DNA from: a virus
Strand: one strand, 5' to 3'
Virus record (IMG/VR): IMGVR_UViG_3300030117_003590
Span: 1-20,365 of that record
DNA length: 20,365 nt
A model generated the notes under the pieces. That model worked only from the letters and a program-made list of their open reading frames with translations, searched no databases and was not told the DNA's origin. Positions 4,764 through 20,201 of the stretch are shown here, in pieces (positions within the stretch are counted from its first letter, which is position 1; every line of letters starts with the position of its first letter). The position numbers were made by a program, and so were the translations under genes.

Positions 4764-4905
4764 TGATTTCTGGGTGTGAATTAAGTAGTTGAATGATTGC
4801 TGAATTTTTATTCAGATTATTTTCTTTGCAGTATTTCCAAAATTTACTGTAAAGGTTGGGTTGAAGCTTTGCAGTTATGACATAAGCATTATAAGCAGAC
4901 TTCAT
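4744..4905 (-). CDS. Small ribbon-helix-helix-like protein
   Basis: A 53-residue ORF from ATG at 4905, overlapping the TGA of the ERF gene by four bases (ATGA), to TAA at 4744-4746. The sequence AYVITAKLQPNLYSKFWKYC followed by KENNLNKNSAIIQLLNSHP has the order strand - helix - turn - helix of RHH (MetJ/Arc) DNA-binding proteins: an alternating beta strand, a Pro, a helix, then N-x-S-A as the second helix cap. It is short but complete for the fold. It could be an autoregulator or a dimerising accessory protein. The 3' end overlaps the next gene by 20 bases in another frame. Confidence 0.45.
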   Translation of the reverse strand: MKSAYNAYVITAKLQPNLYSKFWKYCKENNLNKNSAIIQLLNSHPEINGTNTN

Positions 4906-5636
4906 ACCATAAACTTTCTGATATATGCTTCATGTTCTTTAAATTCAATATCAGTTGCAAGAACTTTATCCTTTGACGGAAAATATGTCTTTTTAAAGTT
5001 TTTCATAATGTCCGCTTTGTCAGGTCTTGAATTTAATTCAGCACGAAGTAAGTCAAATTCATCTTGTGAAAGTTTTGTTTTACCTTCTGGGGCAAGAGTT
5101 GGTGTAACCTTTGAACCCGAGTTCAAGGAGGAGTTAGTGCTTTTTGGTTTTTTTGATTTACCAGTATTATCGGCATCAGCACATTTCTGACTAAAAGCAT
5201 CTGCTTCATCGTCAGCTTGTCCTAATCCATATGCAGCTAACAATAAATATCTTCTTGCATATGTAATAGCACTACCCATTTTATGGTAGATGTTTTGACC
5301 TCTTTGATTTTCTGTAATTATTGGAAGTCTTGAATCAATGAACTCGCCAGATTCGTGCATTAATCGACAGACCATCCAAATAATTGGTTGATCTTTTGCA
5401 TCTGTTGAACTTTGAATAATAAAAGTATGCGAAATGCCATGTTCCGTTGCAGGTGATACAGCTTGTTCTGCTTCAGCTAATGAAACATACGAGCCAAAGT
5501 TACCTGCGGCATCTCGGACTGCATTTGCGTAGACCTTTTGAAATTGTGCAAGAGCTTTAGCAAGTTTTGGTGTTGATTTTTTGATTGGTTCAGATTCAAC
5601 AAGTTTCCAAGTTTGCTCTTCATTTTGTTCAGACAT
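4902..5636 (-). CDS. erf: ERF-family single-strand annealing recombinase
   Basis: A 244-residue protein with the ERF signature: the N-terminal helix KSTPKLAKALAQFQKVY, then AEQAVSPATEHGISHTFII at about residues 56-74, and the hallmark MGSAITYARRYLLLAAYGLGQADDEADA at about 120-147. ERF proteins anneal complementary single strands during phage recombination and genome circularisation or concatemer formation. After the core comes a Lys/Ser/Thr-rich linker and a C-terminal helical segment. I chose the Met at 5636 because the 11 residues upstream run through a promoter-like AT-rich gap. It heads a unit with the RHH-like and acidic-tailed genes; a RusA resolvase lies further upstream. Confidence 0.85.
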   Translation of the reverse strand: MSEQNEEQTWKLVESEPIKKSTPKLAKALAQFQKVYANAVRDAAGNFGSYVSLAEAEQAVSPATEHGISHTFIIQSSTDAKDQPIIWMVCRLMHESGEFIDSRLPIITENQRGQNIYHKMGSAITYARRYLLLAAYGLGQADDEADAFSQKCADADNTGKSKKPKSTNSSLNSGSKVTPTLAPEGKTKLSQDEFDLLRAELNSRPDKADIMKNFKKTYFPSKDKVLATDIEFKEHEAYIRKFMV

Positions 5637-5654
5637 AAAAAATAAATATCGGCA

Positions 5655-5688
5655 ATTATAATATACCAATAAAACCTGTTAGTAACAA
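5655..5688 (-). promoter_or_regulatory. Promoter for the ERF gene
   Basis: On the minus strand TTGTTA (5683-5688) is followed after 17 bases by TATATT (5660-5665), which itself runs into TATAAT (5655-5660). It lies in the 66-base gap between galE and erf, the only gap in the minus-strand run from 7837 to 4473. No palindromic operator copy is present here. Confidence 0.5.
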
Positions 5689-5702: not shown

Positions 5703-6713
5703 TTATTTTGGTTTGTAAACATAGCCATTAGGAAACCTCTGTTGAAATTCCCATGCTGTGGCAATCATATAATCTAAATCATAATGATCAAATCTTAAAT
5801 CCATTGTTTCTCTTGCTTTTTGTACGTCAGCAACAGCAATTGCACAGTCTCCAAATCTGCGTGGAGCAAATTCATAAGGTATTTTTTTACCAGTAACTTC
5901 TTGAAATCTGTCAACAATTTCAAGAACACTATGTCCGTAACCTGTACCTAAATTGTAAACACTACATTCTGGTTGCAAATATTCAAGTGCAGCAACATGA
6001 CCATAAGCAAGATCTTCAATATGAATATAATCTCTTATTCCTGTGCCGTCGTGTGTTTCAAAATCATTTCCAAATATTTTTAATTTATCAAGTTTTCCTA
6101 TAGCAACTTGCGTTATATATGGCAAAAGATTATCTGGTATTTTCTTAGGACTATCGCCAAGATTTATGGTTGCACCAATAGGATTAAAGTATCTAAGTAA
6201 ATTAATTTGCATAGTTTGATCTGTTCTATACCAATCTTGTAAAATATTTTCTACAATTAATTTTGTTTTTCCGTAAGTACTTATGGGCTGTGTTCTGTGA
6301 GTTTCAGGTATAGGGTATTCCAATGGATTTCCATAAACAGCACATGAACTAGAAAAAATTAGTTTTTTACAACCAACTTTTTTCATTGCATTAAACAAGA
6401 TTATTGAGCAAGCAACATTATTAAAGTAATACCATAAGGGAATTTCTTCTGATTCAGGCACACACTTCCAACCTGCTAAATGAATAACAGCGTTAATATT
6501 ATATTTTTCTAATACCTCTACAACTTTAGGTAGATTAATAAGATTCTCATCAATAACAGTTACTTTACCTATAAGTCTTTCAAGCTCATGGACTGCAAAC
6601 ATAGTTGAATTAGCAAAATTATCAAGAATAATTGGTTTGTGTGCTTTTTTATAAAGTTCCGCACAAATATTTAGTCCTATGTAACCTGCACCGCCAGTAA
6701 CTAATACATTCAT
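5703..6713 (-). CDS. galE: UDP-glucose 4-epimerase
   Basis: A 336-residue short-chain dehydrogenase of the extended type, full length for GalE. The NAD-binding motif VTGGAGYIG is at residues 5-13, an IDEN (acidic) patch near 55, HLAGWKCVPES near 79-88 (the GalE AxKxVxES motif), SSSCAVYGNP at 121-130, and the catalytic YxxxK as Y147-GKT-K151. The ARRFGDCA segment near 280 fits the UDP-sugar binding loop (RRxGD). It would interconvert UDP-glucose and UDP-galactose. It overlaps the RusA gene by four bases, so it is co-translated with replication genes. In this genome it may supply the sugar nucleotide for the glycosyltransferase at 17721. Confidence 0.9.
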   Translation of the reverse strand: MNVLVTGGAGYIGLNICAELYKKAHKPIILDNFANSTMFAVHELERLIGKVTVIDENLINLPKVVEVLEKYNINAVIHLAGWKCVPESEEIPLWYYFNNVACSIILFNAMKKVGCKKLIFSSSCAVYGNPLEYPIPETHRTQPISTYGKTKLIVENILQDWYRTDQTMQINLLRYFNPIGATINLGDSPKKIPDNLLPYITQVAIGKLDKLKIFGNDFETHDGTGIRDYIHIEDLAYGHVAALEYLQPECSVYNLGTGYGHSVLEIVDRFQEVTGKKIPYEFAPRRFGDCAIAVADVQKARETMDLRFDHYDLDYMIATAWEFQQRFPNGYVYKPK

Positions 6714-7183
6714 AACTTAGTAATCCTAATCCAAGCACCTTGATGGGTGGTTTGTGATTCTTTTTTTATGTAAGTTTTACTTGCCTTAAGTTTTACAACC
6801 AAAGAATCATCTTCAAGAAGCATACCTCCACTTGGTACAGACAATCCATCAAGAGTAGATCTGCAAAGCTTGTCTATATCTCCGATAATTTTGCTTGAAG
6901 GAAATCTCGGTGCAGAAGATTTGACAAGATCTTTATTTTTACCAGTACCAAAATGTGCTTTTGGCCTATGAAATTGAAATCTTATATCTACTCTTACAGG
7001 GCAAGTTATTATCTTGCCCTCGTTTATTATTTGCTCAATACAGGCAGAAACTATTTGATTTCGCCACGGAGCTACAAATTGACTAGCTTCTCTCATTCCG
7101 TAGCGTGTTCTAATTTTGCTACCTTGTGCTGCAGGTTTACCAACTACTTTTATCAATAAATAACCCTTATCTTCTAGCTTCAT
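6710..7183 (-). CDS. rusA: RusA-family Holliday junction resolvase
   Basis: A 157-residue protein of normal length for RusA. It has GKPAAQGSKIR at residues 15-25, FHRPKAHFGTGK at 71-82, the catalytic stretch GDIDKLCRSTLDGL at 101-114, and LLEDDSLV at 122-129. The acidic residues D102, D104, D112 and D125/D126 match the metal-binding positions of RusA nucleases, which cut four-way junctions in replicating or recombining phage DNA. It overlaps its neighbours on both sides by four bases. Motif agreement is strong, so the assignment is firm at family level. Confidence 0.9.
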   Translation of the reverse strand: MKLEDKGYLLIKVVGKPAAQGSKIRTRYGMREASQFVAPWRNQIVSACIEQIINEGKIITCPVRVDIRFQFHRPKAHFGTGKNKDLVKSSAPRFPSSKIIGDIDKLCRSTLDGLSVPSGGMLLEDDSLVVKLKASKTYIKKESQTTHQGAWIRITKL

Positions 7184-9703: not shown

Positions 9704-11236
9704 TTAATTGGTAGGTTTTAAGTTAATTTGCCAACGATAATGTTGAGCCGTCAAATGAGGAGATCCCATTCGGGCAATAGTTATATCTGATGGGTTAGAG
9801 CTATCAGCAATAACCCATCCATTTTGCCATTCTCCATCATCTTTTAATCTTTGCACTTTTATCCCATGCGTGGGGGTAGATAAATCGGGGGTTTTATGTG
9901 TTTTAAGGGTTTTAGTCTCATTAAAGTCATTAAAGTCATTAAAACCCCTGCTTAGTTCAGTCCCACGAGTAGGTCGAAATAGTGCAATTGGTCTACCTTT
10001 GCTGTTTTGATTTTTAACACCTTCTTGTTTTATAAGACCTTTTCGTTCTAATGCTTTTAATGTTCTTAATGCTTTATTAGAAGTAATGTTGAGTTGGTTG
10101 GAAATATCAAGCGTGCTTGTATATTTATCAGATTCAGCATTATTTATTATCAGATCATATACGTCACCTTGTCGCCCCTGAAGATTCTCTTCAACCTCAG
10201 CCATTCTTTCGGCTTGTATTGCAGAATCACCGTCTCCATGACTTATCCATTTATTGTCAGTAAGTTCTACAACAATTGAAGAACTTGCACCTCTACCCAT
10301 ACAGGAAACAGCAATTCTTTTATCTGATTGGGTACTTTGTTCTGCATTTTGTTTTAACCAATTCATTAAAATAGTTTGGTCAAAAGCTGCAGGTATTGCA
10401 GCACTACCACTTGAAGCCATAACTGCATTGCCACCAAATACAGATTTTGTAGTGTGGTGCAGCATTACGCCAGTAACACCATAATCTTCGGTTGCATCTT
10501 GTAGTTTTCTTATCGGTGCGGAAATTTCAGTTTTATTCTCATCAAGACCCATTTGAGCAGTAACCGATCTAAGGGTATCTACAAGCAATAAACTGTTTGG
10601 TCTTTTTTTGCATACAGATATTATTTTATCTATGCCCTCGTCATTTAACTGTATTCCAGAACCCTGTGACCATAAAGCTATACGTTTATCAATTTTTATT
10701 TTATTTTCTTCAGTTTTGTGACATAAACCTTCTCTTAAAAATAATTTAGCCCATTGTTTATTGCTTTGGTCATTTCCTACTATTATCAAATTATCAAATC
10801 TGTTTTTAATTGGTAAACCTAAAAATTCATTTTCTCCATTTAAAACTGCACCACAAACGCCAATAATAAGTGCAGATTTACCAACCTTTGGTAATGCAGA
10901 AATTAGATTCCAACTTTGGTACATTAATATCTCACCCCAAACCATTGCATCTTCGGTTATGTCAATTTCAAGATCTGAGGTAACAGGTTCGCTGATACCT
11001 AGTTTTGTACCCTGTGCTTTACAAATTATTCTGAAAGCAAAAGAAGAACTGATTGAATAATTAAGGTCTCTTTGTGTCCATAGTTTCAGAAGTTCAATCT
11101 GTCGAGTTATATCCTTTTCTGTTTTTATAACTTTGTCTGCGTATTGGTCTATAAGTTGTAGTTTTTGCAGATCTTCCCTGAGTATTAAGTCCTCGGGATT
11201 TACGGATTCGTTGAAGTCGGTTGGTGTAGAACTCAT
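9704..11236 (-). CDS. RecA-fold replication ATPase (RepA/AAA_25-like)
   Basis: About 510 residues; the start is uncertain (TTG at 11284, ATG at 11266 or 11236; I take 11236 to reduce overlap). The central domain has Walker A ALPKVGKSAL (about residues 114-123), Walker B SLLLVDTLRS (about 215-224), and a GVMLHHTTKS sensor-like motif (about 257-266), as in hexameric RepA-type helicases and related AAA_25 ATPases. After it comes a winged-helix-like segment (STLDISNQLNITSNKALRTLKALERKGLIKQEG), a low-complexity Asn/Asp/Phe repeat linker, and a C-terminal domain. It probably drives or loads onto the replication fork. The 5' end overlaps the gene at 11094-11522 out of frame. Confidence 0.75.
   Translation of the reverse strand: MSSTPTDFNESVNPEDLILREDLQKLQLIDQYADKVIKTEKDITRQIELLKLWTQRDLNYSISSSFAFRIICKAQGTKLGISEPVTSDLEIDITEDAMVWGEILMYQSWNLISALPKVGKSALIIGVCGAVLNGENEFLGLPIKNRFDNLIIVGNDQSNKQWAKLFLREGLCHKTEENKIKIDKRIALWSQGSGIQLNDEGIDKIISVCKKRPNSLLLVDTLRSVTAQMGLDENKTEISAPIRKLQDATEDYGVTGVMLHHTTKSVFGGNAVMASSGSAAIPAAFDQTILMNWLKQNAEQSTQSDKRIAVSCMGRGASSSIVVELTDNKWISHGDGDSAIQAERMAEVEENLQGRQGDVYDLIINNAESDKYTSTLDISNQLNITSNKALRTLKALERKGLIKQEGVKNQNSKGRPIALFRPTRGTELSRGFNDFNDFNETKTLKTHKTPDLSTPTHGIKVQRLKDDGEWQNGWVIADSSNPSDITIARMGSPHLTAQHYRWQINLKPTN
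9907..9947. repeat. Short direct repeats inside an inverted repeat (possible iterons)
   Basis: CATTAAAGT occurs at 9919-9927 and 9928-9936, with a third partial copy from 9937. The block is flanked by GGGTTTTA (9907-9914) and TAAAACCC (9940-9947). It encodes the repeated Phe-Asn-Asp linker of the replication ATPase. Phage origins can lie in such a place, but simple repeat expansion of a linker explains it too. Confidence 0.4.
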
Positions 11237-11522
11237 GTTCGGCTTTGTCTGGGTTGTATTGTTCATCTGAGGTATATACCCCAAGATTTTTTAGCTCCTC
11301 AAATGCTGCAGTTTGGCTATTATTACGAGGCTGTAATTCTTTTTCAAATTCATCTAACGCTATATCACTACGTTCTTTTTGCATTTTCGAATAAAATCCA
11401 AATGCAGCAAGTTCCCAGTTGAAATCAGCAGGTGGTAATGAATATGGTACAGATTTTAATCGTCTGTAACATTCTAATTCAACATCAAAGTCTGGTACAA
11501 AATCATTCTGAGGGTTCAACAT
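11094..11522 (-). CDS. Protein of unknown function upstream of the replication ATPase
   Basis: A 142-residue protein. The first 115 residues look coding: an acidic, aromatic N-terminus (DFVPDFDVELECYRRLKSVP), WELAAFGFYSKMQKERSD, and further acidic helices. The last 30 or so are basic (RRQSYKNRKGYNSTD), which may reflect the constraint of overlap, because its final 143-191 bases are also read in another frame as the start of the ATPase. No motif recognised. It overlaps the RHH gene by 20 bases upstream. Possibly a loader or partner of the ATPase, by position only. Confidence 0.55.
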   Translation of the reverse strand: MLNPQNDFVPDFDVELECYRRLKSVPYSLPPADFNWELAAFGFYSKMQKERSDIALDEFEKELQPRNNSQTAAFEELKNLGVYTSDEQYNPDKAEHEFYTNRLQRIRKSRGLNTQGRSAKTTTYRPIRRQSYKNRKGYNSTD

Positions 11523-11778: not shown

Positions 11779-12645
11779 TTAAATTAAGGGTTGACAGTTT
11801 TCAAAGACCTCTTTTTTTATATAAATTGATGGTCTGTTATTCCAACACTTAGTTTCATATTTCAAGTAGTTATATTTTTTCAAAGTTTGCCCAAACAATC
11901 GACTTATTTCTTTGGGTGTAAACATATTGCTTTGATCTCGGTATTGATCAAAATGCCCAGTACTGTCTGCATTAAAAGCGTTAGCACAAATAAGAATGGT
12001 TGGATTTGATATTTCTAACACCTCTTTCAAGTGTTCTACAGGTCTTTCAAAATGCTCAAAGTACTCACTAGCAAAAGCAATTTCTATACATTCTTTTTCA
12101 GTCTCACGTAAAGAATCAATTAGACTGTAAGAATAGGCTTTACTCAATGTCTCATTTAAAGTCCATTGGTAAGAATTTTTTACGTTTGTAGCAATAACTT
12201 TGTTGGGTAGTTTTTGTGTAAAAGCTACACTTGAAAACCCAATTCCGTTACCAAGATCCAAGACACTACCTTGACCTATATATTTTTTAAGATTAGGTAC
12301 AAGTTTGGTGTTAAATATGTCTTTGATATATTTTTTGGCATAATAATCAAAGCAAACCCAAACTTCAGACAAGTAAATTTTTTCTGAATAAACTTCATAG
12401 TCTGCATAACCTAGATTTCTAAGTTGGTGGTACCATCTTTTTTCTAAATCAAGTAGTTTCTGATGAGCTTTGTGGCCTTTTTTGGTGTTTTCTTTTATGC
12501 AATACAAAGTTTCTAGTGCAACTTGACCTATACTTTCTGAGTCTGTGATGTTACAGAAGTCTAGTAAATAACAAAAGTAACCAAGACTTGACCGACTTTT
12601 TAAAGCGGCCAAGTCCTGTACTGTTTTCAATTCCCCTGAAGTCAT
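11779..12645 (-). CDS. Class I SAM-dependent methyltransferase
   Basis: A 288-residue protein. The Rossmann glycine loop SVLDLGNGIGFSSVAF is at about residues 127-142, followed by VIATNVKNS (acceptor strand end) and SEYFEHFERPVEHLKEVLE near 193-211, which occupies the motif IV-post region of many small-molecule and RNA methyltransferases. No DPPY or NPPY is present, so a standard adenine-N6 or cytosine-N4 DNA methyltransferase is unlikely; no PC motif of C5 enzymes is seen either. An N-terminal helical domain of about 120 residues precedes the fold. It overlaps the DUF932 gene by four bases. The substrate is unknown. Confidence 0.75.
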   Translation of the reverse strand: MTSGELKTVQDLAALKSRSSLGYFCYLLDFCNITDSESIGQVALETLYCIKENTKKGHKAHQKLLDLEKRWYHQLRNLGYADYEVYSEKIYLSEVWVCFDYYAKKYIKDIFNTKLVPNLKKYIGQGSVLDLGNGIGFSSVAFTQKLPNKVIATNVKNSYQWTLNETLSKAYSYSLIDSLRETEKECIEIAFASEYFEHFERPVEHLKEVLEISNPTILICANAFNADSTGHFDQYRDQSNMFTPKEISRLFGQTLKKYNYLKYETKCWNNRPSIYIKKEVFENCQPLI

Positions 12646-15302: not shown

Positions 15303-15346
15303 AATTGACGGGTAAAACCGTTGGAAACTTGAAAATTTTATTTATT

Positions 15347-15655
15347 ATGACTAAGCCGAGAAACTTAGACGAAGCTACTAAACTAGCTATCATTTACACT
15401 AGCGGTGGCGGTTCATCATGGGCTCAAGGTTCAGATGAAGATAATCATGTTCTGGCACTAAAGGCCGGTAAGCATTTCAAACAAGATTGGAAGCACATGT
15501 TTAAATTCAAAAAATCTGGCGAACAAAAGCTGTGTGTTCATCTTTATGACATATCAAAAGCCGAAGGTTGGTCTGCTGATTATTCTGGCAATGTAACTTG
15601 CCTTGAATCCAAAAAGGAATGCCCATATATTGAAAAAATATATGTAGTGGTTTGA
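15347..15655 (+). CDS. Small early protein of unknown function, single-gene unit
   Basis: A 102-residue protein (MTKPRNLDEATKLAIIYTSG at the start) with a Gly/Ser loop (TSGGGSSWAQGSDED), a basic aromatic middle (HFKQDWKHMFKFKKSGEQK) and three Cys in the second half (LCVHLYD, VTCLESKKECPYI). No catalytic motif seen. The frame extends to a TTG at 15305 inside the promoter, so the ATG at 15347 is preferred, although it lacks a Shine-Dalgarno sequence. It has operators upstream and its own terminator, like the 7901-8209 gene. Confidence 0.6.
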   Translation: MTKPRNLDEATKLAIIYTSGGGSSWAQGSDEDNHVLALKAGKHFKQDWKHMFKFKKSGEQKLCVHLYDISKAEGWSADYSGNVTCLESKKECPYIEKIYVVV

Positions 15656-15735: not shown

Positions 15736-16770
15736 ATGGTGGCAATTAAAAGTACTGAACTACCGATAAACGAACTAACGGAATATGAGAAAAACAGTAG
15801 AACCCATAGTGATGACCAGATTAAAGCTCTTGCAGAAGCCATAAAAAGATTTGGTTTTACTCAACCAATTATTTGTGACGAGTCAAAAGTCATACTTGCA
15901 GGTCATGGCAGATATATGGCTGCAAGGCAATTAGGATTAAAGGTCGTTCCATGTAGAGTAGTAACATCCTTAACAGACCAAGAAAAGAAAGCATACATTA
16001 TTGCTGATAATAAAATTGCAGAGATAAGCGAATGGCACGAAGGACATTTACTTGAGGAACTTAATGACCTCCAAGACTTCGATGCTGACGAAAGTTTGGC
16101 AGCATTATTTGATCTAAACACGTTTGTAAAGACAAAAGCACAGCAAATATCAATAGATAAAATAAAACCACATCCAAGAAACTATAAAATACACCCACCT
16201 GAACAACTAGAACATTTACAGCAATCAATCAAGGAAAATGGTATTTACAGGAATATACTTGTTGCCAATGATTTAACTATTCTTGCTGGTCATGGCATAG
16301 TCGAAGCCGCAAAGTTACTTGGGTTGACTTCTGTACCTATTTTGAGACTTGATCTCCCACCAAACTCCACCAAATCCATCAAAATTCTCACAGCCGATAA
16401 TGAAGTGACACATTTAGCAGAGACTAATATGCGAGAAATGAGTGAATTGTTGAAAGAATTGCTTGTTGAAGATGATTTGCTAGGAACTGGTTATGACAAA
16501 GACAAGATTGAAAACTTGCTGATGGTTTCTAGGTCAAAAGATGAAGTGAAAAAGCTAGATGATGAAGATTGGGGTAACTATATGGACTTTCAAGCTGTAA
16601 AACCTAATCCAAAACTGATAATTAACTTTGAAAACGAAAAAGATAGAGAAGATTTTGGTAAATTTATTGGTGCAGAACTAACAGACAAGACAAAATATAT
16701 ATGGTGGCCATTTAAAGAAAAGAAAAAATTTGCTCACCTTAACTACGTTGCAGAGGATTCTAATGAGTGA
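15736..16770 (+). CDS. Protein with two ParB/Sulfiredoxin-fold domains
   Basis: A 344-residue protein with two tandem ParB-like domains. Domain 1 (about residues 1-110): PINELTEYEKNSRTHS, then IKRFGFTQPIICDESKVILAGHGRYMAA with the GHGR motif at 56-59. Domain 2 (about 135-225): ISIDKIKPHPRNYKIHP, SIKENGIYRNILVANDLTILAGHGIVEAA with GHG at 185-187 but Ile in place of Arg. A C-terminal region of about 110 residues follows. The family binds nucleotides or DNA and can be a nuclease or NTPase; in phages such proteins recur beside base-modification and terminase genes. Its last eight bases overlap the radical SAM gene. Confidence 0.8.
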   Translation: MVAIKSTELPINELTEYEKNSRTHSDDQIKALAEAIKRFGFTQPIICDESKVILAGHGRYMAARQLGLKVVPCRVVTSLTDQEKKAYIIADNKIAEISEWHEGHLLEELNDLQDFDADESLAALFDLNTFVKTKAQQISIDKIKPHPRNYKIHPPEQLEHLQQSIKENGIYRNILVANDLTILAGHGIVEAAKLLGLTSVPILRLDLPPNSTKSIKILTADNEVTHLAETNMREMSELLKELLVEDDLLGTGYDKDKIENLLMVSRSKDEVKKLDDEDWGNYMDFQAVKPNPKLIINFENEKDREDFGKFIGAELTDKTKYIWWPFKEKKKFAHLNYVAEDSNE

Positions 16771-17728
16771 CTCATTCTTTGATATTAAAAACATTGAAGC
16801 TCTTTATAAAAGACCACCAGAAACTGACCCTATAGCTTGGGATGATTATATAAACAATCAAAAAGATGCAGAAACTTTTACTAGCGTTCCTGATGCACCA
16901 ATACAGATAGATTTTGAATTAAATGGTAGTTGCAATATGGCTTGTCCATTTTGTATTCATGGGATAGGTGGCGGTAGAACTGCTGAAAACATTGCATTAG
17001 ATACATATAAGAAACTCATTGATGAAGCTGCAGAAATGGGTACTAAATCGATCAAATTAAATTATATAAATGAACCATTACTAAGAAAAGACCTTGAGGA
17101 AGCAATAGCTTACGCAAGATCAAAAGGAATTATAAATATTTACTTTGTTACCAATGGTTCATTGTTAACCGAAAAAAGAATAGATGCTTTATTGCAAAGC
17201 GGTGTAACAAAAGTCTTTATCAGTATTGATGCAGCAACTGAAGAAACTTACAACAAGCAAAGAAAGAATGGTCTATACAAAAAAGTGGTTGAGAATGTGA
17301 AGAGGCTTGTAGAAAAGCGAGATCAGTTAGGAATGGAGTTTCCAAAGATAAGAGTTAGTTTTTTAAAAAATAAAATTAACGAACATGAAGCCGAACTGTT
17401 TGAACAGCAATGGATAGGCATAGTTGACGTAATAACATTTCAGACAATGAACAAAGTGCCGGGCATAGTAACTGGGTTAACTTTATTTGAAAACGAAAAG
17501 CCAAAGCCTTGTAGTTTTCCAAACAAGCAATTAGTTGTAGATAGTTCTGGCGATATACTACCCTGCTGTAAATTATGGGGCAAAGAGCTTTCTATTGGTA
17601 ATATTGCAGACATGACATTAAAAGAAGCATGGAAAAGTGGAAAAATGGAACAACTTAGGAAAGCCCACGCTGATAATAATTGGGAAATGATTTCAGCTTG
17701 CAGAAATTGTTTATACAATAATGAATAA
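16763..17728 (+). CDS. Radical SAM enzyme with SPASM domain
   Basis: A 321-residue protein. The radical SAM cluster motif CxxxCxxC is C57-NMA-C61-PF-C64, followed by GIGGGRTAENIALD, an NEP strand (LNYINEPLLRKD) and FVTNGSLLT (128-136), as in the MoaA/PqqE group. The C-terminal SPASM-type region carries C250, C268-C269, and C313/C316, ligands for extra iron-sulphur clusters. The fold reductively cleaves SAM to start radical chemistry on a peptide, sugar or base; the substrate is unknown here. ATG at 16763 is chosen because it overlaps the ParB stop. Co-transcribed with ParB and the glycosyltransferase. Confidence 0.85.
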   Translation: MSDSFFDIKNIEALYKRPPETDPIAWDDYINNQKDAETFTSVPDAPIQIDFELNGSCNMACPFCIHGIGGGRTAENIALDTYKKLIDEAAEMGTKSIKLNYINEPLLRKDLEEAIAYARSKGIINIYFVTNGSLLTEKRIDALLQSGVTKVFISIDAATEETYNKQRKNGLYKKVVENVKRLVEKRDQLGMEFPKIRVSFLKNKINEHEAELFEQQWIGIVDVITFQTMNKVPGIVTGLTLFENEKPKPCSFPNKQLVVDSSGDILPCCKLWGKELSIGNIADMTLKEAWKSGKMEQLRKAHADNNWEMISACRNCLYNNE

Positions 17729-18545
17729 AATTCTACCTAAATATCCAATATTTATACCAAGTCACAAAAGATCTGATGTTTGTCTGACTCCTAGATTATT
17801 TATGGAACATGGAGTTCCATTTAAACTTGTAGTCGATGAGACTGAGTATGAGAAGTATGAGAAGATATTCGGAACTGAAAGAATGTTACTTCTACCCTTT
17901 CTTAATGATGGAACATCTGCGCCACCTCGTTCTTGGATAACTGATTATAGTCGCAAGCAAGGAGATCATAGACATTGGCAGATAGATGACAATATAAGAT
18001 GGTTTTGTCATTTTAATGGCAGAACCAGAATACAGATACAACCAAATTTAGGTTTACGTCTTTGCGAAGAATTTTGTGACCAATGGAATAATGTTGGTAT
18101 TTATGGTCCATATTATTCTTTCTTGTCAAATGCAAGAATAACCCCTGTACCTTTCAGAAAAAATGTACATGTTTATTCGTGTATGTGTGTACTGAACAGT
18201 TTGCCTTTTAATTGGAGAGGCCCTTGGAATGAAGATGTAGATTTATGTCTGCAAACTCTTGCTCATAAATATTGCACTATTGGTACGACCTTTATAACTC
18301 AAGAAAAAATGAAAACTATGTCTATGAAAGGTGGTAATAGTACTGCTTATCAAAATCTAGATATAAGAGCATTTGGTTCTAGAGCATTACAACGCAGATG
18401 GCCTGACGTTGTAGAGCTTAAAAACAAATATGGCAGACCACACTTTCATATAAAAAACAACTGGCGTATGTTTAAAGATATACCATTAATTAAAGATCCT
18501 AATTACAAGCCAAAATCTTTTAGCATACAATTACAAGAAAAGTAA
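17721..18545 (+). CDS. TAGT-like glycosyltransferase (TET-associated glycosyltransferase family)
   Basis: A 274-residue protein. The N-terminus PIFIPSHKRSDV (9-20) and PFKLVVDETEYEKY (33-46) are the nucleotide-sugar side of a GT-A fold; HRHWQIDDNI (83-92) supplies a DxD-like motif (IDDN); VYSCMCVLNSLPFNWRGPWNEDVDLCL (151-177) has the WNED motif; MSMKGGNSTAY (200-210) and WPDVVELKNKYGR (227-239) complete the pattern. This order is the one I know for TAGT proteins, which attach sugars to oxidised pyrimidines in phage DNA. It overlaps the radical SAM gene by eight bases and ends one base before the terminase small subunit gene. Alternative: a glycosyltransferase for a virion or cell-surface target. 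Confidence 0.8.
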   Translation: MNKILPKYPIFIPSHKRSDVCLTPRLFMEHGVPFKLVVDETEYEKYEKIFGTERMLLLPFLNDGTSAPPRSWITDYSRKQGDHRHWQIDDNIRWFCHFNGRTRIQIQPNLGLRLCEEFCDQWNNVGIYGPYYSFLSNARITPVPFRKNVHVYSCMCVLNSLPFNWRGPWNEDVDLCLQTLAHKYCTIGTTFITQEKMKTMSMKGGNSTAYQNLDIRAFGSRALQRRWPDVVELKNKYGRPHFHIKNNWRMFKDIPLIKDPNYKPKSFSIQLQEK

Positions 18546-18546
18546 T

Positions 18547-18864
18547 ATGAAAAGATCTACTAAAAAAGAATTTGATGCAAGAGTCCGTAAAGTAGCAGGC
18601 TTAAAAGCACGAAATGCTAGTCGGTCTGAAATTGTGGCATATGGCACAAGGGAATGGGGGGTGAACAAAAGACAAGTTGATGTTTACTTGGCTGAGGCAA
18701 ATAAACTCATATCAATTGATTGGGAGATAGATAGAAGGCAATTTTCTGCAGATCTTTTATCACAATTAAGCACATTGGCACAAGACGCAAGAAGAAATGG
18801 TCAACCTCATGTAGCTTTGGGTTGTATAAATACTATGGCAAAGATAAGTGGTGTAGTTAAATGA
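18547..18864 (+). CDS. terS: Terminase small subunit (putative)
   Basis: A 105-residue helical protein directly upstream of the large terminase and overlapping it by four bases. The N-terminal half KEFDARVRKVAGLKARNASRSEIVAYGTREWGVNKRQVDVYLAEA has a helix-turn-helix outline (SEIVAYG...VNKRQVDVYL), the usual DNA-recognition part of small terminases. The second half is a helical oligomerisation-like segment (ADLLSQLSTLAQDARRNGQPHVALGCINTMAKI). Identity rests mainly on position and on this architecture. Confidence 0.7.
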   Translation: MKRSTKKEFDARVRKVAGLKARNASRSEIVAYGTREWGVNKRQVDVYLAEANKLISIDWEIDRRQFSADLLSQLSTLAQDARRNGQPHVALGCINTMAKISGVVK

Positions 18865-20201
18865 GCATCTTAGATATTCAAGAAGGGGAAATACTTGAAA
18901 GCGTTAGTTCATCAAATATTGACTGTGATGCAATACTAGAACAAATAAAAAGTGACTTACATCCCGGACAATTAGATTTTGTTAATGACCAAAATACTGA
19001 AATAATTGGATTATCAGCAGGTTATGGTGCAGGTAAAACTCGAAGTCTTTGTGCAAAAGCTGTACAGTTAGCTATAAGTAATCAAGGTTTCACAGGTGCA
19101 GTAATGGAACCGACTGCACCACTTATAAGAGATATTTGGCAGAATGATTTTGAAACATTTCTAGAAAATTATGGGATTCCTTATACAACAAGGCAATCTC
19201 CATTGCCTGAGTATTCTTTGCATTTACCAGATGGGGAGGCAAAGATATTATGTAGGTCGTTTGAGAATTGGTCAAGAATTATAGGTCTAAACTTAGCATG
19301 GGTTCTTGCAGATGAGATTGATACAGTAGCACCAAGCATTGCAGATCGTGCTTTTCCTCGTATTCTTGCAAGACTTCGAAGTGGGAATCAAAGACAGTTC
19401 GGTGTAGCGTCTACACCTGAAGGTTTTAGGTGGATGTGGAATACTTTTGGTAGTAATGAAGCTAAGAAAAAGACTGATAGACGATTAATAAAAATGAGAA
19501 CTTACGATAATCCACATTTACCTGCTGACTTTATTACAAGACTTGAAGAGAATTATGAGTCTGGGTTACTTCAAGCCTATTTGAATGGAGAGTTCTGTAA
19601 TATAACAACAGGGGTAGTCTACAGTCGCTTCGATAGATCTACTCATGTCATTGAAGAAAAGCCAAATATAGAAAACGAACCACTTAGAATTGGTATCGAC
19701 TTTAATATCGGGAATACTAATGCTGTAGTTGGTCTTGCTGTAGGTGATTCAATGACTATCTTTGATGAAATTAATGCTAGTTATGACACTGACACTTTGG
19801 CGAAAGAAATTAAGAACAGATATCCATTTAACAAAATTTATATCTACCCTGACGCTTCAGGCGGTAATAGAAGCACAAATGCTACAAAAACCGACATCCA
19901 AATACTTGAAAGCTACGGATTTGTTAATCAATCCGCAGCATCAAATCCACCGATAAGAGATAGAGTTAATTCTGTTCAGCGATTATTTCAAGATGGTAGA
20001 GGTAACATTAGATTAAAAATTCACAGTTCTGCAAAAAAATTAATCGAGTGTATAGAACTTCAAAGTTATACTGAAAAAGGAGACCCTGACAAAGAAGCTG
20101 GTTACGACCATATGGTAGATGCACTTGGTTACATTTGTTGGAGGTTGTTTAACCCATTACATATGGGTGCTGGTCGCAAAACTGGTGTTAGGCTTTATTA
20201 A
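18861..20201 (+). CDS. terL: Terminase large subunit
   Basis: A 446-residue protein with the full terminase set. ATPase: Walker A GYGAGKT (residues 54-60), Walker B WVLADEID with D151/E152, coupling motif GVASTPEG (181-188). Nuclease: GIDFNIGN with D280, YPDASGGN with D331, and GYDHMVDALGY with D416 and D420, the RNase H-like metal sites. The enzyme drives DNA into the prohead and cuts the concatemer. The first 30 residues form a short acidic extension before LHPGQLDFV. It is followed after about 40 bases by the portal gene. Confidence 0.95.
   Translation: MSILDIQEGEILESVSSSNIDCDAILEQIKSDLHPGQLDFVNDQNTEIIGLSAGYGAGKTRSLCAKAVQLAISNQGFTGAVMEPTAPLIRDIWQNDFETFLENYGIPYTTRQSPLPEYSLHLPDGEAKILCRSFENWSRIIGLNLAWVLADEIDTVAPSIADRAFPRILARLRSGNQRQFGVASTPEGFRWMWNTFGSNEAKKKTDRRLIKMRTYDNPHLPADFITRLEENYESGLLQAYLNGEFCNITTGVVYSRFDRSTHVIEEKPNIENEPLRIGIDFNIGNTNAVVGLAVGDSMTIFDEINASYDTDTLAKEIKNRYPFNKIYIYPDASGGNRSTNATKTDIQILESYGFVNQSAASNPPIRDRVNSVQRLFQDGRGNIRLKIHSSAKKLIECIELQSYTEKGDPDKEAGYDHMVDALGYICWRLFNPLHMGAGRKTGVRLY

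Follow-up and report, generated by a model that had tools for sequence, protein, structure and literature searches.

A phage galE gene follows the type of TAGT glycosyltransferase cassette within one phage family

Within one phage family, the presence of a gene for UDP-glucose 4-epimerase (galE) follows the type of cassette that carries a TAGT glycosyltransferase gene. On balance we favour the reading that GalE makes the UDP-sugar donor which TAGT transfers, most likely to phage DNA, and that relatives use UDP-xylose made by a UDP-xylose synthase (UXS) for the same purpose. The window, the whole stretch of DNA analysed here, is a 20,365-base IMG/VR virus record from a marine phage and likely a fragment. 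Its features are collected in Table 1.

Table 1. Features of the window that bear on the proposed link between galE and TAGT.
Feature	Position	Strand	Basis
erf, single-strand annealing protein of the ERF family, next gene after galE	4902..5669	-	PF04404
galE, UDP-glucose 4-epimerase, 336 aa	5703..6713	-	TIGR01179 score, PDB GalE matches, catalytic residues, dN/dS
ATGA overlap of rusA stop and galE start (translational coupling)	6710..6713	-	sequence
rusA-like Holliday junction resolvase	6710..7183	-	PF05866, phrog_140
RepA-like replicative helicase / AAA protein, early unit	9704..11284	-	PF13481; 34% to S-CBS3 'RepA'
ParB-like protein, type 1 cassette	15736..16770	+	PF02195, two stretches
Radical SAM / SPASM protein, type 1 cassette; may begin at an internal start	16730..17728	+	PF04055 and PF13186
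TAGT glycosyltransferase, presumed consumer of the GalE product	17721..18545	+	PF20691; predicted model
terS	18547-18864	+	position and size; downstream of TAGT
terL	18861-20201	+	phrog_2 terminase large subunit; synteny

The galE reading frame is on the minus strand, which the first-pass annotation had left unstated; the plus strand of the same segment contains 18 stops. Its product scores 383 bits against the NCBIfam equivalog TIGR01179 (cut-off 262.3), covering residues 2-330, and in a PDB search matches E. coli GalE structures over its full length (~302 bits, residues 1-331). The catalytic S123, Y147 and K151 (Ser and Tyr-x3-Lys) are invariant in 40 of 40 aligned GalE sequences, and the equivalents of E. 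coli S124, Y149, K153, K84, N179 and R231 are likewise identical across all 40. Pairwise dN/dS against six relatives was 0.055-0.18, and galE is, therefore, a maintained gene. Judged by its sequence, the segment encodes a complete GalE, presumably active as an epimerase, and the first-pass annotation was thus right to call the gene full-length and motif-complete. The protein is like E. coli GalE in its length, in exceeding the equivalog cut-off and in its catalytic and NAD-binding residues. It differs in being phage-encoded, between rusA and erf, and in having Ala in place of Tyr299.

The first-pass annotation had also read galE as translationally coupled to rusA. Indeed, the ATGA junction is kept in all 12 clade A members inspected (window counted). 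The minus-strand unit comprises the helicase, a PD-(D/E)XK nuclease, rusA, galE and erf, and the divergent plus-strand unit comprises ParB, the radical SAM/SPASM protein, TAGT, terS and terL. The distance of ~11 kb between galE and TAGT, and their location in opposite units, count against a link between them; the labels 'early' for galE and 'late' for TAGT are our reading of gene content and orientation. Between these genes, at 11779-12645 and adjoining DUF932, lies a weakly class-I methyltransferase-like gene, which we considered as a partner and rejected for its patchy distribution among relatives (matched in G004, G028, G029, G039 and G040; not listed in G005, G008, G009, G010, G030 and G041). 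When the window is compared with G039/G040, a small ORF (15305-15655 in the window; L062 2546-2872; L064 1134-1460) shows 94-95% identity, although its neighbours reach only ~70% and the ORF sits elsewhere in G039/G040; it is probably a recently moved gene. Eight relative loci were scanned for tRNA genes as host clues, and none was found.

The TAGT-like glycosyltransferase that the first-pass annotation had placed in the same genome as galE is indeed there, directly before terS-terL, and scores 103.8 bits against PF20691 (gathering cut-off 27.5). Its AlphaFold2 model (pLDDT 84.5) has glycosyltransferases as best Foldseek matches (E 1e-5 at best, with TM-scores of only ~0.4-0.5, so that a GT-A-type fold is a possibility), the best solved folds being polysaccharide and collagen glycosyltransferases; no sequence homology to any solved structure chain was found. 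In general Pfam scans of the proteins, no alpha-GT or beta-GT family appeared.

Two types of TAGT cassette lie before terS. Type 1 consists of ParB, radical SAM and TAGT1 (window, G004, G005, G008, G009, G028, G029, G030 and G035), and type 2 of UXS, ParB and TAGT2, without radical SAM (G039, G040, G041, G077, G078 and G087). The type 2 enzyme, encoded directly upstream of ParB-TAGT, is by its sequence a UDP-glucuronate decarboxylase, that is, UXS; the proteins of G039 and G077 match human UXS1 with 413 and 407 bits, respectively. The radical SAM gene was detected in 8 of the 30 records searched (window counted) but not in any of the six with a type 2 cassette; all fully covered type 1 cassettes contain it, and type 2 cassettes do not. 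The encoded protein may act on the sugar or on the base. In the open-licence PMC literature we found no relevant paper on a TAGT accompanied by ParB and radical SAM.

Contigs of close relatives in IMG/VR encode GalE proteins of 79-99% identity (12 loci). Of 85 loci surrounding rusA and galE, 12 matched the window galE, every one from clade A, and 73 gave no match. Ten contigs cover the rusA-erf site as well as the cassette. In these, galE occupied the rusA-erf site in seven out of seven type 1 contigs (window, G004, G005, G008, G009, G030 and G010, the last counted as type 1 through its ParB, since its contig is cut short) and was absent from three out of three type 2 contigs (G039, G077 and G078).

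This pattern does not simply follow the phage backbone. In a backbone tree (helicase and DUF932, 14 rows), G030, G029 and G028 group with G077 and G078 with a support of 100/100; in the TAGT tree this grouping is rejected (AU p ~1e-41). Between G030 and G077, identity is 83-90% for helicase, DUF932, ERF and TerL and falls to 39% for TAGT; the TAGTs of the window and G030 are 69% identical. The conflict between the trees, together with these identities, shows that cassettes have been exchanged between phages. On the backbone tree the cassette was swapped twice, and galE changed along with it in both independent contrasts, although with two contrasts only the independent-pairs test has no power and a sign test cannot reach 0.05.

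The galE of G030 also lies between rusA and erf, in the orientation opposite to that of the window galE, and its product is ~40% identical to the clade A and window GalEs and ~50% identical to bacterial GalEs. Identity and orientation suggest that G030 gained its galE separately, which is likely; we did not adopt an independent gain as a firm claim, as a tree of 40 GalEs did not reject one common origin for the genes of clade A and G030 (AU p 0.22). A further relative, G119, bears a galE of the G030 type (85% identity), has a terminase of another type, and carries directly before terS a gene (L375 1-834) that we take, from its motifs, to encode a C5-cytosine methyltransferase. Neither a TAGT match nor radical SAM was found in its sequenced part, and the contig ends at this gene. 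G119 is thus a possible counter-example to the pairing of galE with TAGT, though TAGT could lie beyond the contig end.

We also searched 41 rusA-relative records (40 from a rusA scan, and S-CBS3). TAGT was present in two of them (G077 and G078), which are also the sole carriers of a GalE-like SDR, namely UXS (Fisher p 0.0012, a value that ignores relatedness). No GalE-like gene was found in the 39 TAGT-less rusA-relatives, many of which are fragments and several of which end before the cassette is reached (G036, G037, G043 and G044, clade C by their genes, are examples). Five long records (G055, G062, G070, G073 and G074), however, contain both rusA and terL and neither TAGT nor a GalE-like gene. 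The first-pass annotation had named an outcome that would refute its proposal, namely that galE is just as frequent in relatives lacking any glycosyltransferase; within the family, this check did not refute it.

We then looked at viruses at large. A TAGT profile scan of viral contigs gave at least 600 matching stretches, and 599 of 600 were confirmed. Among 46 diverse TAGT records searched (39 of 80 loci kept, and 7 phage records), a GalE-like SDR was present in 10, none over the GalE cut-off, and was not detected in 36; TAGT as such, therefore, needs no galE. Of the 10 SDRs, seven are encoded no more than 3.2 kb from TAGT (combined p 0.0007; leaving out G104, a near copy, gives 0.009), one of the seven records, G087, being a clade C relative of the window's own family; those of G115, G114 and W07 are far from TAGT and count against an association. 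Near TAGT, UXS was found in the unrelated phages G111, G103 and G118 (identity by PDB search) and also in G086 and G104 (blastp to clade C UXS), while in G106 a GalE-type epimerase takes its place. UDP-glucose dehydrogenase is encoded in four of the 46 TAGT records (G106, G111, G118 and Vibrio phage Kuja), each of which also belongs to the 10 SDR-bearing records (p 0.0013), and is nearby for two of the UXS genes near TAGT in unrelated phages. Tandem TAGT genes, or one protein with two TAGT stretches, were seen near ParB and SDR genes at L253 9123-10807 (G106) and L255 2924-4657 (G086). In the reverse direction, TAGT was found in 2 of 49 GalE-like viral contigs outside the window's family, and the other 47 show none. 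As a general sign of DNA glycosylation galE thus fails. The link between galE and TAGT drawn in the first-pass annotation does not extend to viruses at large, but it is probably right in this phage family, where galE tracks the cassette type in all 10 contigs.

The 47 contigs without TAGT are what would be expected if galE were an auxiliary metabolic or host-surface gene, serving envelope glycans, receptor change or energy, and unrelated to TAGT. A marine survey, in the part accessible to us, also describes galE as a common viral gene and classes it as carbohydrate metabolism (PMC9301287). We nevertheless consider this explanation unlikely for the present family, as galE tracks the TAGT cassette type through two swaps, is placed between recombination genes, and has no second glycosyltransferase to serve among 25 further ORFs scanned in the near-complete relative G008, where the matches were to head, tail and other phage families (Pfam complete; for PHROGs, the best 25 of 80 families). 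Very unlikely, in our view, is that galE is neutral cargo whose match to the cassette reflects shared ancestry and two chance changes. Such a coincidence would be compatible with there being only two independent contrasts and with one origin of both galEs, but not readily with two galEs that differ so far in sequence and orientation at the same site, with the low dN/dS of galE, or with an alternative cassette that brings another UDP-sugar enzyme.

GalE and TAGT might also cooperate while differing from our preferred reading in the sugar or in the target. Tyr299 of E. coli GalE limits substrate size, and small residues at this site accompany acceptance of N-acetyl sugars; Cys is found there in 1lrk, the first-ranked structure in a PDB search with the window GalE. 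The equivalent residue is Ala293 in the window, Ala or Ser in seven clade A proteins and Thr in G030; the window GalE thus lacks the strict E. coli-type Tyr gatekeeper, which is a feature of the subtype and does not define the family. UDP-GalNAc is, therefore, as possible a product as UDP-galactose. These residues, and the UXS of relatives, which puts pentoses in play, would suit a GalE that acts chiefly on UDP-GlcNAc/UDP-GalNAc, or on host UDP-xylose/UDP-arabinose, with a product other than galactose. We regard this as rather unlikely. Small gatekeepers are widespread and say little about preference: Cys occupies the site in 28 of 32 bacterial relatives. In addition, phage UGDH was absent from the searched clade A records, in which the search for GalE revealed no second SDR. 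As to the target, the name TAGT derives from association with TET/JBP dioxygenases. TET/JBP (PF12851) was found in 1 of 42 records, an unrelated contig (the window record itself being only a 20-kb fragment), and in none of the 46 TAGT records, in a search where no positive control matched; thymidylate-synthase-type hydroxymethylase was found in none of 27 records, with 9 of 14 control genomes matched. We thus did not find either enzyme, in the records searched, as a source of an acceptor hydroxyl. This result, the location of TAGT beside the terminase genes in a late-looking unit, and the fold matches to polysaccharide and collagen glycosyltransferases would be consistent with a virion or host protein, rather than DNA, as the target. 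We find such a target improbable, as the TAGT of T2/T6, according to the accessible portions of the reports, acts on DNA, where it adds glucose to already glucosylated hydroxymethylcytosine (PMC13216743, PMC13390438).

The window TAGT shares with that enzyme, which forms gentiobiosyl-hydroxymethylcytosine, the Pfam family PF20691, over its cut-off. It differs in sitting in a ParB-radical SAM-TAGT cassette and in having neither TET/JBP nor a thymidylate-synthase-type hydroxymethylase found with it. Since the T2/T6 acceptor is already glucosylated, more than one kind of acceptor may be considered for the window TAGT.

Taking GalE as the source of the TAGT donor, which we prefer, the following scheme may be proposed. 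GalE would be made alongside the replication and recombination genes and would turn the host's UDP-glucose into UDP-galactose, or its UDP-GlcNAc into UDP-GalNAc. This GalE-derived sugar would be transferred by the type 1 TAGT, most likely to a modified base of phage DNA or, alternatively, to a sugar already present on a base, and the sugar on the DNA would shield it from host nucleases. In relatives that have the type 2 cassette, UDP-xylose from the phage-encoded UXS would be the donor. The gene identities in this scheme come from sequence, and the coupling, the conservation, the exchange of cassettes and the co-segregation were observed; we infer the enzyme activity, the donor sugar, the DNA acceptor, the timing and the protective role.

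Supply of an activated sugar by the phage itself has parallels. RB69-type phages, which make arabinosyl-hydroxymethylcytosine, need a donor that the host may not supply and, from what could be consulted of the source, are thought to carry genes for it (PMC6024577); they are alike in having phage genes for a DNA-sugar donor, but use another transferase and an isomerase and NTP-transferase for supply, where the window's family has GalE or UXS. Shewanella phage Thanatos has a deoxypentose, putatively xylose, on cytosine and encodes a UDP-xylose pyrophosphorylase, TH1_063 (PMC12838424). It is similar in its phage-encoded supply of activated sugar, but the route is by pyrophosphorylase and not by UXS or GalE, and TAGT is not named in the sections of that paper available to us. 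In the open-licence PMC papers, as far as their accessible text goes, we did not find a description of phage UDP-galactose or UDP-xylose supply paired with TAGT or with DNA glycosylation.

The co-segregation predicts that TAGT1 uses a GalE product and TAGT2 uses UDP-xylose. More tentatively, and with somewhat less confidence than we place in GalE as the source of the donor, the family may switch its DNA sugar by swapping matched sets, GalE with ParB-radical SAM-TAGT1 (galactose-type, ~11 kb apart) against UXS-ParB-TAGT2 (xylose-type), so that each transferase arrives along with its own donor supply, and solitary TAGTs of marine phages may often install sugars other than glucose. At least some viral galE genes, placed under carbohydrate metabolism in the part of the marine survey that we could consult (PMC9301287), would thereby obtain a functional reading. 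The pattern of galE and UXS among the relatives suggests that phages of this family encode the supply of the sugar with which they would coat their DNA.
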